Below are positions 1,713 through 35,164 of a stretch of DNA of 38,296 nucleotides, in pieces. Source of the stretch: Candidatus Methylomirabilis lanthanidiphila (GTDB lineage Bacteria; Methylomirabilota; Methylomirabilia; Methylomirabilales; Methylomirabilaceae); assembly GCA_902196205.1 (NCBI GenBank), contig CABIKM010000023.1, positions 1 through 38,296 on the forward strand, given 5' to 3'. Position 1 is the stretch's first letter, and each line of letters begins with the position of its first letter. The position numbers and the translations under genes were made by a program. The notes beneath the pieces were generated by a model. It was not told the origin of the DNA. It did no database searches and saw nothing but the letters and a program-made list of their open reading frames with translations.

Positions 1713-2595
1713 ATGGATCAAGAGGACACGCATCAGCCAATCTCTTCCCCGCGCGGCTCGACGTTGTGGGCAAGCGTTGGCACCCGCCTGTTGCTGCTCA
1801 CCCTCATGGCTATTGTGCCTGCCTTAGGCCTTGCGCTCTACACGGGCTTGGAACATCGTCGAACAGCCGCCGTCCAGGCACAACAAGAAGCGCTGCGACT
1901 TGCCAGGATCGCCTCCAATGACCACGAACGATTGATAGAGGGGGCACATCAACTCCTCGTCGCCCTATCGTTGCTACCCGCGGTCCGTACACGCGATGCT
2001 CGCGCTTGCAGTGCGTTCTTTGCCGACCTTCTGAAGCAGTACACCCGGTATGCCAACTTGGGCGTCGTCGAAGCGGACGGTTATTTCTATTTTGGCGGAG
2101 GTTCGGCTCCAGGCCGACCAAAAACAGCTTAGCCAGGAGCTGTGCGTCGACGAGGCGCCACCCACGCTGATCGCCGATCCCGTCCGCCTCAAGCAGATCC
2201 TGTTGAACCTCCTCTCCAACGCCGTGAAGTTTACGCCGGACGGCGGGCGGATCACGGTCACCGCCCGGCGCGTTTCGAGTTTCGAGTCTCTGGTCTCGAG
2301 TTCCCAACCCGAAACCCGAAACCCGAAACCCGAAACGCCGAAATCTCCTGAGTTCGTAGAGATCTCGGTTGCCGACACGGGAATGGGGATCAAGCCGGAC
2401 GACTTGCCGCGGCTCTTTCAGGAGTTCGTCCGTCTCGACGCGGCGATGGTGAAGCACATCCCGGGGACCGGACTCGGCCTTGCCTTGACGAAAAAACTGG
2501 TCGAGCTGCACGGGGGAGAGATCGCCGCCGCCTCGGACGGCGAAGGCCGCGGCAGCGTTTTCACTGTCCGCTTTCCCCTGGCGCCTTCTCAATAG
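1713..2595 (+). pseudogene. Histidine kinase gene broken by an internal deletion
   Basis: The 5' part (1713-about 2100) encodes a membrane segment (about residues 28-48) and the beginning of an extracytoplasmic sensor region ending GVVEADGYFYFGG. At about 2095-2110 this frame fails and stops at 2132. From the same point another frame encodes the tail of a kinase: RLQADQKQ, then an N-box (LKQILLNLLSNAVKFTPDGG), a G1 box (VADTGMGI) and GTGLGLALTKKLVELHGG, ending at 2595. The rest of the sensor and the whole HisKA domain with its phosphorylated His are absent, so an internal deletion best explains the layout. A 63-bp heptad array (2273-2335) is also inserted in the ATPase domain. The remnant should not be able to autophosphorylate; the 139-residue N-terminal fragment might still be made. 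Confidence 0.82.
2273..2335. repeat. Heptanucleotide inverted array inside the kinase pseudogene
   Basis: Nine consecutive 7-bp units in one unbroken register: two TTTCGAG, then TCTCTGG, TCTCGAG, TTCCCAA, then four CCCGAAA. The left units are near reverse complements of the right ones (CCCGAAA reverses to TTTCGGG), so the array can fold into a hairpin. It lies between the ARRV and FVEISVADTG segments of the ATPase domain, a position where kinases of this type have a short loop. It keeps the frame open, adding about 20 residues with a 7-residue period (PETRNPK). Confidence 0.85.
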
Positions 2596-9523: not shown

Positions 9524-9526
9524 GAT

Positions 9527-9561
9527 TCAGCGATCAGCATTCAGCCGTCAGCGGTCAGCGC
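9527..9561. repeat. Heptanucleotide array between pgi and glk
   Basis: Five 7-bp units all starting TCAG: TCAGCGA, TCAGCAT, TCAGCCG, TCAGCGG and TCAGCGC. On the coding (minus) strand these read as units ending CTGA. The TCA of the last unit is the reverse complement of the pgi stop codon TGA (9555-9557), and the array runs to within 4 bases of the glk start codon. It therefore occupies the entire pgi-glk space, including where a ribosome site would be. Only one arm orientation is present here. Confidence 0.82.
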
Positions 9562-14732: not shown

Positions 14733-16078
14733 TGCGATTGGTCCGATCGATCCGTCATAGGCGCCAGTGCGGCGTGCGCTGTGTCTTCGGTTTCTTCCTC
14801 GTGACGATGCTTCTGCTGCCGGTTGTCCTCTCCGCTGAGGAGAAATACACTGTCGATATTGTTCGAAAAGAAGCGCAGAAGATTACGATTGCGGTCGCAG
14901 GGTTCCCGCCGCTGAAGGTCGGCTCCAAGGGCGAAGACTTCGGCGCGCAAGCGGGCGCCATCTTGACCGATGATCTGAAGAGCACCGGGATCTTCGATGT
15001 CATCGATCCGTCATTTCTTCCGGTTGAGGCTGCCAAGGTCGAATTAGGGCAGGAGAAGGGGATACTGCCGGCGCTGAACTCATTGAAGGTCCAGGCCTTG
15101 GTGGTGGGAAGGCTCTCATCCCGGGGCGGCGAGCTTGTGGTGGAGGGCCAGCTCTTTGAGGTCACAAAGGGTGAGATGCTGTCCGGGAAGCGTTATGCCG
15201 GAGATTTGCGGACCTTGCGGACGATGGTGCATCGCCTGGCGGACGAGATCGTCTTTCGGCTGACGGGAGAAAAGGGGATCGCCTCCTCCCGGATTGCGTA
15301 TGTCGCCTCCGTCAATGGCGCGAAAGAGATCTACGTCATGGACTACGATGCCTATAATCCGCTTCTGATCACCGGCAATCACTCGATTAACCTCTCACCG
15401 CGATGGTCTCCAGACGGGAAGAAGATTGCCTATACCTCCTATCGAGATCGGAATCCCGACCTCTTTGTGATCGATCTGGAGACCGGACGACGTCAGAAGA
15501 TTTCGTCAAGCCCCGGACTCAATGTGGCCCCGGCGTGGTCTCCGGACGGCAAATGGCTGGTCTTTTCAATGAGCCGTGGGACGGGGACCAACCTCTTTCT
15601 GATCCGGCCGGATGGGACCGGGCTTCGTCAACTGACGCAGGGACCGCATATCGATATCTCCCCATCTTTTGCTCCCAACGGGCGGCAGATTGTGTTCAGT
15701 TCGGATCGCGGCGGGACACCGCAGATCTATCTGATGGATATCGAAGGAACCAATATCCGGCGTCTGACCTTTGGGGTTGGAGACTATAGTGTGTCGCCTC
15801 GGTGGTCCCCGCGTGGCGATAAGATCGCCTTTGTGGGCAGAACGCACGGCAGCTTCGATATCTTTCTGCTCAGTCCCGACGGGACAGGGTTGGTACAGTT
15901 GACTGCAAACTCGCGCAATAACGAGGAGCCGTCGTGGTCGGCTGATGGTCGGCATGTTCTCTTTACCTCAACGCGGAATGGTTCTCGACACCTGTATATG
16001 ATGCGAGCCGATGGATCGAATCAGCGGCAGTTGACGAAAGATGGAGCGGAAAACTACCTCGCAGACTGGTCGCCGTAG
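14732..16078 (+). CDS. tolB: TolB, periplasmic beta-propeller of the Tol-Pal system
   Basis: TolB is a periplasmic protein that binds Pal and is pulled by TolA, so regulating Pal mobility at the septum. The 448-residue sequence has an N-terminal signal peptide (about 13-36, VFGFFLVTMLLLPVVLSAEE). The TolB N-terminal domain (about 40-170) has ITIAVAGFPPLK and ILTDDLKSTGIFDVID. A six-bladed propeller follows, with repeated units of the form NLSPRWSPDGKKIAYTSYRD and PAWSPDGKWLVFS. The protein ends in the propeller blade ADWSP. The start overlaps the tolA stop by one base. Confidence 0.96.
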   Translation: MRLVRSIRHRRQCGVRCVFGFFLVTMLLLPVVLSAEEKYTVDIVRKEAQKITIAVAGFPPLKVGSKGEDFGAQAGAILTDDLKSTGIFDVIDPSFLPVEAAKVELGQEKGILPALNSLKVQALVVGRLSSRGGELVVEGQLFEVTKGEMLSGKRYAGDLRTLRTMVHRLADEIVFRLTGEKGIASSRIAYVASVNGAKEIYVMDYDAYNPLLITGNHSINLSPRWSPDGKKIAYTSYRDRNPDLFVIDLETGRRQKISSSPGLNVAPAWSPDGKWLVFSMSRGTGTNLFLIRPDGTGLRQLTQGPHIDISPSFAPNGRQIVFSSDRGGTPQIYLMDIEGTNIRRLTFGVGDYSVSPRWSPRGDKIAFVGRTHGSFDIFLLSPDGTGLVQLTANSRNNEEPSWSADGRHVLFTSTRNGSRHLYMMRADGSNQRQLTKDGAENYLADWSP

Positions 16079-32857: not shown

Positions 32858-32903
32858 TGATTACGCGCGTAGTCATCGACGTGGATGAGAGGGGGTGATC
32901 GGT

Positions 32904-33926
32904 TTGAACAACTATCGCGTTGGTCTCCCGATGATTGCTGGAGGGGCGGCCATCGGGTTCTATCTGGCCTCTCGGGCCGCCGTAGGTCCATACCAATCGC
33001 TGCTCAGTATGGCCGGCCTCCTATTAGGGGCCTCCTGCGGTATCGTTGTAATGGTCCTCCAGCGCAAGTTTCGTCAGACGTCCTTGCAGGTCATTATCAG
33101 CGGCATCATCGGATTCGTTTTAGGTCTTGGTCTGGCCGAACTTTTTTTTAATGCGATTTCCGGCTTTCTGAACTTCATTCCTAATTATATCGCTGAGACC
33201 ATGCAGACCATTGTTACAATCGGCGCGGCCTACCTGGGGGCTGCAATCGCGATCGAGAAGAGTCCGGGGTTCAGCATGTCGAGTCTGGTGCGGGCGTTCA
33301 GGGAAAAGCCACGGGGTAAGAGCAGCAAGATCCTTGATACCTCGGTGATCATCGATGGCCGTATTGCGGATATCTGCGAGACGGGATTTGTTGAGGGAAC
33401 GCTTGTAATTCCTCAATTTGTCTTGCGGGAGTTGCAGCAGGTTGCCGACTCATCAGATCCGTTGAAACGCAACCGTGGTCGACGGGGACTGGATATCCTA
33501 CAGAAAATACAGAAGAAGGTCGATGTGCATGTCGAAATCAGTGATATGGACTTCCCTGACATCCGTGAGGTGGACGCAAAATTGGTCGCGCTGGCCAAGG
33601 CGCTGAATGCCAAGGTGGTCACCAACGATTTCAACCTGAATAAGGTGGCAGGGCTACACGGGATCGGGGTATTGAACATCAACGAGTTAACGAATTCGCT
33701 TAGGCCTGTTGTCCTGCCCGGTGAAGAGATGCAGGTGTTCGTCCTGAAAGAAGGTAAGGAGTACAACCAGGGGATTGCCTACCTTGATGATGGCACGATG
33801 GTGGTGGTCGATAGTGGCCGTCGATATATCGGCCAGACTGTCGAAGTGCGCGTGACCACGGTGCTGCCGACGACAGCCGGGCGCATGATCTTTTCACGTT
33901 TGAAGGAAGAGGCCGAGGCCGCGTAA
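32904..33926 (+). CDS. YacL-like membrane PIN-TRAM protein
   Basis: An N-terminal membrane region with about four helices (roughly residues 5-120) precedes a PIN nuclease-fold domain (about 140-255). The PIN domain has ILDTSVIIDGRIADI (two acidic metal ligands), VLRELQQVADS, and ATNDF-like VVTNDFNLNKVA. A C-terminal TRAM RNA-binding domain (about 285-330) has GIAYLDDGTMVVVDSGRRYI. YacL is a probable membrane-bound RNase; its targets are unknown. The start is placed at TTG 32904, because GAGGGGGTGATC upstream matches the 16S rRNA end over 10 of 12 bases with good spacing. A GTG at 32895, inside that site, would add three residues. Confidence 0.85.
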   Translation: MNNYRVGLPMIAGGAAIGFYLASRAAVGPYQSLLSMAGLLLGASCGIVVMVLQRKFRQTSLQVIISGIIGFVLGLGLAELFFNAISGFLNFIPNYIAETMQTIVTIGAAYLGAAIAIEKSPGFSMSSLVRAFREKPRGKSSKILDTSVIIDGRIADICETGFVEGTLVIPQFVLRELQQVADSSDPLKRNRGRRGLDILQKIQKKVDVHVEISDMDFPDIREVDAKLVALAKALNAKVVTNDFNLNKVAGLHGIGVLNINELTNSLRPVVLPGEEMQVFVLKEGKEYNQGIAYLDDGTMVVVDSGRRYIGQTVEVRVTTVLPTTAGRMIFSRLKEEAEAA

Positions 33927-33931
33927 GAGCA

Positions 33932-33998
33932 GGGTAAAGGGTTTAGGGTGTAGGGTAGAAGCAAGGACCAAGCTGCCAAACCCCAAACCCCAAACCCT
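33932..33998. repeat. Heptanucleotide inverted array ending at the ispD start codon
   Basis: The 7-base register runs unbroken: GGGTAAA, GGGTTTA, GGGTGTA, GGGTAGA, then AGCAAGG, ACCAAGC, TGCCAAA, CCCCAAA, CCCCAAA, CCCT. The G-rich left arm and C-rich right arm are inverted (CCCCAAA reverses to TTTGGGG) and can form a long hairpin. The last unit runs into the ispD ATG at 33999. The array fills the whole space between yacL (stop at 33926) and ispD except for five bases. Confidence 0.85.
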
Positions 33999-34691
33999 AT
34001 GATTGTGACTGCTATTGTTCCCGCCGGTGGAGCGGGAATTCGATTCGGGGGAGCGGTCAAGAAACAGTTCATCACCCTGAACGGTTTGCCGATACTCAGC
34101 CATACGTTGCGAGCGCTGGCAGCGTCTAACGCGTTTGCTGTCATCATTGTCGCGGTCCCTGCCGGGGAGGAGTCGAAGGGTCGAGAGGCGCTGGAGCTGG
34201 CCAGGATCAATCTAGAGACAGAGGTGGTCCCGGGAGGACAGACGCGGCAAGAGTCGGTCTATAACGGTTTGCAGAGGGCGAAGGCGGCGACGGATCTCGT
34301 GCTGATCCACGACGGCGTTCGCCCTTTTGTTTCGCGTGAGGTTGTGCTGTCTACCGTAGAGGCCGCGAGACACGCGGGCGCGGCGGTTGCAGCCGTGCCC
34401 GTTGTCGATACCATCAAGCGGGTCGACATTGACGGCTTTGTGGTGGAGACGCTGCCGAGAGGACAGCTCTGGTCGATCCAGACCCCTCAGGTCTTCCAAT
34501 ACGAGCTCCTGATGCGGGCTCACCGGGTAGGTCGGGAGCACGGCATTATCGCCACCGATGATGCCGCACTTGTGGAGCGAATAGGGGGGACGGTCAAGGT
34601 TGTGAGAGGGAGTTACGAGAACCTTAAAATCACCGGCGAAGAGGATCTGCCTCTCGCCGACCTGATTCTGAAGCGACGGAAGGTCACATGA
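33999..34691 (+). CDS. ispD: 2-C-methyl-D-erythritol 4-phosphate cytidylyltransferase
   Basis: IspD transfers CMP to methylerythritol phosphate in the MEP isoprenoid route. The 230-residue sequence has VTAIVPAGGAGIRFGGAVKKQF (CTP-binding loop), LIHDGVRPFVSREVV and the C-terminal GSYENLKITGEEDLPLADLIL. The conserved N-terminus fixes ATG 33999, yet no Shine-Dalgarno sequence is present: the heptad array runs up to the ATG. The stop overlaps ispF by 4 bases. Confidence 0.95.
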   Translation: MIVTAIVPAGGAGIRFGGAVKKQFITLNGLPILSHTLRALAASNAFAVIIVAVPAGEESKGREALELARINLETEVVPGGQTRQESVYNGLQRAKAATDLVLIHDGVRPFVSREVVLSTVEAARHAGAAVAAVPVVDTIKRVDIDGFVVETLPRGQLWSIQTPQVFQYELLMRAHRVGREHGIIATDDAALVERIGGTVKVVRGSYENLKITGEEDLPLADLILKRRKVT

Positions 34692-35164
34692 CAGTCGGCA
34701 TTGGGTTTGATACACACCCGTTAGTTCCCGGTCGGCGTCTTGTCCTGGGCGGGGTGGAGATCCCTTTCGAGAAAGGACTTGACGGCCATTCGGATGCGGA
34801 TGCCTTGGCCCACGCCGTAATCGACGCCATACTTGGCGCCGCCTGCGCCGGCGATATCGGCTCCTGCTTTGGCACGAATGATCCTCAATACAAGGATGTG
34901 TCGAGTCTCCTGCTCCTCAAGGAGGCGCTCCGACGTGTTCAGGCACTTGGCTATGCGGTCAATCACATCGATGCGACCATCATCGCAGAAGCGCCGCGGC
35001 TTGCGTCCTTCATTGTACAGATGCGGGCCAACGTTGCCGATAGCGTGGGCACTCCAATCGAACGAGTCAGCGTCAAGGCGGCGACCGCGAATCGGGTGGG
35101 TGCGCTGGGGGCGGGCGACGGGATTGCCTGTCTCGCTGTGGCATCACTGCAGCGTCTCGAATGA
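34688..35164 (+). CDS. ispF: 2-C-methyl-D-erythritol 2,4-cyclodiphosphate synthase
   Basis: IspF closes the cyclodiphosphate ring in the MEP route, after IspE. The 158-residue protein has GIGFDTHPLVPGRRLVLGGV with the zinc-binding Asp-x-His, FEKGLDGHSDADALAHAVID, the catalytic ATN-type motif KAATANRVGALGAGDGI and the usual length. It is translationally coupled to ispD (ATGA). Confidence 0.96.
   Translation: MTVGIGFDTHPLVPGRRLVLGGVEIPFEKGLDGHSDADALAHAVIDAILGAACAGDIGSCFGTNDPQYKDVSSLLLLKEALRRVQALGYAVNHIDATIIAEAPRLASFIVQMRANVADSVGTPIERVSVKAATANRVGALGAGDGIACLAVASLQRLE

Follow-up and report, generated by a model that had tools for sequence, protein, structure and literature searches.

Arrays of seven-base repeats next to gene starts have been described in two settings. 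In the Beggiatoaceae, TAACTGA heptads adjoin the start codons of core genes and overlap the place of the Shine-Dalgarno (SD) sequence; SD sequences are rare, and the origin of the repeats is given as unknown (PMC4679880). In Xanthomonas and Nostoc, GGGNATC heptads lie between aligned genes, often with four G-tracts, and their G-rich strand is sense near stop codons and antisense near start codons (PMC4692102). These start-proximal heptads are the closest known systems to the structure analysed here, an inverted pair of seven-base arrays that occupies the whole of the 72-base gap between yacL and ispD. Like the GGGNATC heptads, the structure has a period of seven and four G-tracts (four AGGGTNN units); unlike the Beggiatoaceae repeats, it is not built of TAACTGA. 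No description of such heptad hairpins in the Methylomirabilis group was found in searches of a library of openly licensed papers.

The gap lies in a stretch of 38,296 nucleotides, analysed at its full length (the window), from a member of the methane-oxidising NC10 bacteria. The gene order on the + strand is radA, a CarD-like gene, yacL (PIN and TRAM domains), ispD, ispF, cysS and rlmB. The product of ispD was identified by TIGR00453 (236 bits for a cut-off of 181) and PF01128, and among named records that share this ispD region the nearest, with 87% identity in IspD, is an assembly assigned to Candidatus Methylomirabilota. The features of the junction are:

32895..33926, + strand: yacL-type gene (PIN domain and TRAM domain), the operon partner upstream of ispD
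33924-33926, + strand: yacL stop codon, TAA
33927..33930, + strand: GAGC foot linking the yacL stop to the hairpin, read from the sequence
33931..33958, + strand: 5' G-rich arm, four AGGGTNN heptads with four GGG tracts
33959..33975, + strand: apical part of the hairpin, containing AAGGA
33976..33998, + strand: 3' C/A-rich arm, 3.1 copies of CCAAACC, abutting the ATG
33999..34691, + strand: ispD, start codon ATG at 33999-34001
34688..35164, + strand: ispF, whose start shares 4 nt (ATGA) with the end of ispD, a close operon packing

The units of the 5' arm are AGGGTAA, AGGGTTT, AGGGTGT and AGGGTAG. As the original prediction stated, the array ends at 33998, flush with the ATG at 33999. Within positions 33700-34100 neither a promoter-like site nor an intrinsic terminator (a G+C-rich hairpin with a T run) was found, the hairpin being followed by the ATG, and the only Rfam matches at gathering score in the window were five tRNAs; the hairpin matched no known RNA family. 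We infer that yacL and ispD are co-transcribed. We also put forward, tentatively and at somewhat less than even confidence, that translation of ispD is coupled to that of yacL, ribosomes being handed over past the folded hairpin.

An upstream in-frame start of ispD is impossible because of an in-frame TAG at 33951-33953, and ATG 33999 is the first start after this stop in the list of open reading frames. The sole near alternative, GTG 34005 (codon 3), is a GTG in 5 of the 14 genomes of the genus that carry ispD, whereas the ATG is found in 14/14; the claim that ispD has no other start is thus borne out. The same holds for the claim that no ribosome site precedes the ATG. With an SD tetramer defined as GGAG, GAGG or AGGA at -20..-4, none of the three is present before ispD in the window, and the predicted pairing with the anti-SD is +2.3 kcal/mol, worse than at any of the 48 unambiguous starts sampled in the source genome. 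The end of the 16S rRNA of this genome carries the canonical anti-SD CACCTCCTTT, a tail motif shared by genomes G004 and G005. The apical AAGGA is about 31 nt from the ATG, a distance too great for a normal SD.

To be counted as unambiguous, a start had to come first after an in-frame stop not more than 60 nt away and to be followed by 60 nt free of a second start; the samples were annotated with a simple purpose-written caller, of which only such forced starts were trusted. A tetramer precedes 22/48 of these starts in the source genome and 12/35 in G004 (34/83 over the two sampled genomes), against baselines of about 30% and 29%, respectively, for shuffled upstream bases and of 21% and 11% for a segment lying further upstream. 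That translation of ispD "must start in another way" was therefore an overstatement, as the remaining 49 of the 83 unambiguous starts in the two genomes also lack a tetramer. The comparison of related strains that the original prediction had in mind placed a tetramer at the ATG in neither array-bearing nor array-less members of the genus (0/14), the ATG itself being kept in all 14, and the predicted anti-SD pairing energy of ispD is above 0 in 11/14. The absence of an SD sequence at ispD is ordinary for the genus; the unusual part is a conserved hairpin that runs from stop to start, flush with the ATG, while its units change. The proportion of tetramer-less starts (49/83) favours the main rival to coupling, a passive repeat combined with ordinary SD-less initiation: ispD would start de novo by an SD-independent route, and the hairpin would be a neutral or selfish repeat that expands in operon junctions and chanced to reach the ATG. 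We consider this rather unlikely, and the evidence on both sides is given below.

IspD was found in 14 of the 15 genomes of the genus, the exception being G003 (83% complete). A hairpin is present in the yacL-ispD gap in 13 of the 14, with unit sequences that differ by species. The gap ends in CCCT against the ATG in 12/14, the array-less L086 among these; AGGGT lies within 12 nt of the yacL stop in 12 of 14 gaps, and the foot GAGCAGGGT is found again in 8/14. L094 carries an unrelated unit pair, GGTTCCA/GGAACNN, at the same place, and in L086 the TAA is followed by 12 nt and the ATG, with no SD. Presence in 13/14 and the CCCT edge in 12/14 exceed what is seen at other compared sites (such as purF, or glk, where the array is in the source genome only), which counts against a passive repeat. 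The scaffold of L088, which has the hairpin, also bears a second, array-less junction of a yacL end and an ispD start beside a run of Ns; this could stem from the assembly having collapsed at the hairpin, or represent a strain variant. From the 76 loci of one search only L007 was used, and its gap, identical to that of L084, was not counted separately.

In the wider order, IspD was found in 31 of 35 genomes searched and 16 loci outside the genus were inspected, all with yacL upstream of ispD (16/16). Extended to these loci, the lack of an SD tetramer held for 15/16; it failed at L119, the only one with a tetramer (1/16), and L121 has a strongly G-rich stretch, both in another family with a different hairpin. 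In that one family (L119-L121), a heptad hairpin of opposite polarity, AATCCCA/TGGGATT, was seen by eye in the yacL-ispD gap, and a G-rich stretch, strongly so in L121, lies between hairpin and ATG in L119 and L121. The idea that the array erased an SD is not supported, as the array-less L086 and 15/16 order-level relatives also lack a tetramer, although several of these order-level relatives pair better with the anti-SD; probably, then, the missing SD predates the array or has nothing to do with it.

Four further junctions, with gene names from NCBIfam, were compared; they had been picked for an array in the source genome or in G004 and are not a random sample. A period-7 score of at least 12 was reached at 3/12 purF, 7/14 coaBC, 6/13 nuoL and 1/13 glk loci and at 8/14 ispD loci, a mechanical test that undercounts; purF, coaBC and nuoL thus resemble ispD. 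Two results from these sites favour the passive repeat: arrays appear and vanish at purF, coaBC and glk among genomes, and coaBC starts lack an SD tetramer in 14/14 whether an array is present or not. Without an array, the purF junction of L139 reads TAAATG and the nuoL junction of L250 is TAG, 6 nt and ATG. In G004 the nuoL start is forced by an in-frame stop at -6, a C-rich array lies 5 nt upstream, and there is no SD. Across the nuoK-nuoL gaps (L249-L261) the units vary by species (CCCGAAA, TTGAAC, ACCCT, TTGGAAC), as if gained repeatedly. At the glucokinase gene, on the minus strand, a single-arm GCTGANN array makes up the whole 31-nt gap before the ATG (window 9524-9554); its phase matches that of the TGA stop before it, and it was seen in the source genome only among 13 loci.

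Heptad hairpins lying between operon genes are numerous in this genus. The sample of the source genome, about 402 kb in total, comprised the window and 19 further stretches, a twentieth consisting of N only. This sample contains 38 period-7 arrays, 30 of them between called genes, for 0-8 arrays at periods 5, 6 and 8-11; in 400 kb of G004 there are 17 vs 0-2 at other periods. The source genome thus has a genuine class of period-7 arrays. By eye, their units are of several kinds, including ACCCTNN, GTTCAAN, GCTGANN, CCCGAAA and CTCCTNA. Over both samples 13/55 lie inside called genes, a further point in favour of a passive repeat. Hairpins also occur in coding sequence: a heptad inverted pair, GTTTCGA/AACCCGA, lies at window positions 2272-2345 inside the called frame 2092-2595, and others were seen inside called genes of the source genome at L099 13960-14074 and L100 ~14750-14870. 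A bias of arrays toward co-directional gaps was not striking (26/29 observed, 21.4 expected) and was set aside. A flush edge is not a general rule either: with 133 C-rich arrays followed by an ATG within 14 nt, 11 are at distance 1, three of which are ispD itself, and most are at 6-10; many ATGs near C-rich arrays are not starts, a frame of at least 200 aa opening at 12/30 loci. In genomes G000-G009, T-rich sequence often comes after C-rich heptad arrays that lie near an ATG (38% T in gaps of at least 6 nt, e.g. ACCCTGTTTTTTATG), and an SD tetramer lies between array and ATG in 9/133.

For the yacL-ispD gap the predicted structure is a single hairpin of -27.5 kcal/mol, with the first pair 4 nt past the stop and the last pair abutting the ATG. 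For the gap alone z was -2.3 against dinucleotide shuffles; for 33927-34018 it was -1.5, with 16/200 shuffles as stable, and a comparison with mononucleotide shuffles gave -3.9. Taken by itself, this hairpin is predicted to be only moderately more stable than chance. The case for the hairpin rests on the relatives, where a hairpin is the predicted fold of 13/13 array-bearing gaps of the genus, with z between -1.1 and -4.4. In the predicted structure an average of 26% of the 20 bases upstream of the ATG are unpaired. This contradicts bS1-dependent initiation on an unstructured C/A tract, one of the routes that had been suggested, as the tract is the 3' arm of the hairpin; it also speaks against the passive repeat, the arm next to the ATG being predicted to be paired rather than open. 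When 5' and 3' arms were swapped among species (13 x 13), p was 0.04 with all 13 and 0.38 without L094, and the species' own arm pair was top of its row in 0/13. Arm coevolution or compensatory change is not claimed, given the p of 0.38 once the odd species L094 is excluded; the absence of any sign of coevolution counts against coupling and favours the passive repeat. Arm pairing may be a by-product of the polarity of G-rich and C-rich repeats, and selection on pairing is unsupported because the arms are not specifically matched within species.

Two other explanations were considered. Firstly, the G-tracts of the 5' arm would form a G-quadruplex that alternates with the hairpin and releases the C/A arm and the ATG. 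At least four GGG tracts are present in the 5' half of 10/13 array gaps, and quadruplex formation in vitro is described for related G-rich heptads (PMC4692102), but with quadruplex energies switched on the hairpin stays the minimum-energy fold in all gaps, and L094 lacks such G-tracts. A quadruplex as the main fold was rejected since the energy model does not prefer it, and a switch of this kind appears very improbable. Secondly, RNase III or another nuclease would cut the hairpin and generate an ispD mRNA with a very short leader or none, to be translated as a leaderless message. A long stem flush with the ATG and the CCCT edge in 12/14 favour such processing, yet mismatches and stem geometry differ among species and RNase III is not expected to cleave precisely at an ATG; we regard this explanation as quite improbable.

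Coupling to yacL, our preferred reading, would proceed as follows. There is no SD site at ispD, and most likely none existed there when the array arrived. On free mRNA the C/A arm beside the ATG would be paired, and independent entry of a 30S subunit would be costly. A ribosome ending yacL would sit on the foot of the hairpin and loosen the pairing next to the ATG; with the rest of the hairpin still folded, it would stand a few unpaired bases from the ispD ATG, and the ribosome or its 30S subunit could then initiate ispD. This folding out would be the reason why the insert was tolerated or kept. In array gaps, the linear distance from stop to start of 71-108 nt (median 84) becomes 1-26 unpaired nt (median 7) once folded; in the window 72 nt become 4 nt in the predicted fold. 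The folded median is close to the 12 nt of the array-less L086. The predicted cost of opening -15..+13, where the ribosome lands, has a median of 11.0 kcal/mol (8.2-20.2) over the 13 gaps with an array, falling to 6.7 kcal/mol with 12 nt past the yacL stop held open, as a terminating ribosome would do, and to 3.9 with 25 nt, for 5.4 kcal/mol in L086. These predicted energetics fit coupling through unfolding and proximity. The sequences point the same way: the hairpin is present in 13/14 despite differing units, the unrelated pair of L094 included, array-less gaps at comparable junctions can be short as in coupled pairs (purF of L139, nuoL of L250), and the search for a promoter-like site gave none at 33700-34100. 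Against coupling, the predicted relief with 12 nt held open is partial, and nil or near nil in L089 and L093, perhaps because the heptads can pair again with a shift of one unit; in addition, the helix that abuts the ATG would need opening at the E site.

Published data bear on coupling in both directions. Unfolding by upstream translation of a structure at the downstream start is an established coupling route (PMC12548453). In E. coli, re-initiation is reported to be nearly gone at a linear gap of +38 nt (PMC10666635), and the 72-nt gap would therefore need to be folded out; older reports of coupling across long linear gaps, mentioned in the same paper, imply that folding out may be unnecessary. 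In a synthetic E. coli operon, a stable structure right after the stop reduces re-initiation (PMC7518266), a result that counts against coupling here, as the hairpin begins 4 nt after the yacL stop. Hand-over from yacL is the best supported of the three routes offered in the original prediction, though opposed by these post-stop data. The same data suit an insulator, in which a ribosome termination structure would block yacL ribosomes from re-initiating, ispD being set independently at a low level: the distance of 4 nt from the stop, the -27.5 kcal/mol and a gap exceeding 25 nt fit the published structures (PMC7518266). However, the hairpin covers the ispD start too and would also block de novo entry, and neither an alternative ribosome site nor a promoter was seen; we judge insulation improbable. 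Combined, the results uphold the anatomy that had been described and part of its interpretation, but not that the lack of an SD is exceptional or that the C/A tract is open, since the former is common and the latter predicted to be paired.

If coupling to yacL is true, a long structured insert can separate coupled genes without uncoupling them, the ribosome meeting the folded distance. This would bear directly on linear versus folded distance in re-initiation, where published results conflict, and the 13 genomes, each with its own hairpin at the same junction, provide a series made by nature. A gene of the isoprenoid pathway would also join the cases in which tandem repeats take the position of a ribosome site.

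The structure can be set beside known systems. Like the TAACTGA repeats of the Beggiatoaceae, the heptads are adjacent to the start (here at 0 nt) and SD sequences are rare (0/14), but those repeats are nearly all direct, whereas here the arrays are inverted, form a stop-to-start hairpin and have species-specific units (PMC4679880). The strand rule of the GGGNATC heptads is obeyed, the G-rich strand being sense 4 nt past the yacL stop and antisense flush with the ATG; unlike those heptads, the unit is AGGGTNN, and the stop and start positions are united in one gap as an inverted pair (PMC4692102). The predicted fold also differs in favouring a hairpin over a quadruplex. As in a ribosome termination structure, a stable intra-operon fold lies directly past a stop in a gap of 72 nt, for a criterion of at least 25 nt, but it also covers the downstream start and is built of fast-changing tandem repeats (PMC7518266). 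Finally, the junction shares with coupled pairs a structure over the start, close gene packing and no strong ribosome site of its own (PMC12548453, PMC10666635), and differs from native re-initiating pairs of E. coli in a linear gap that, at 72 nt, is longer unless folded out (PMC10666635).
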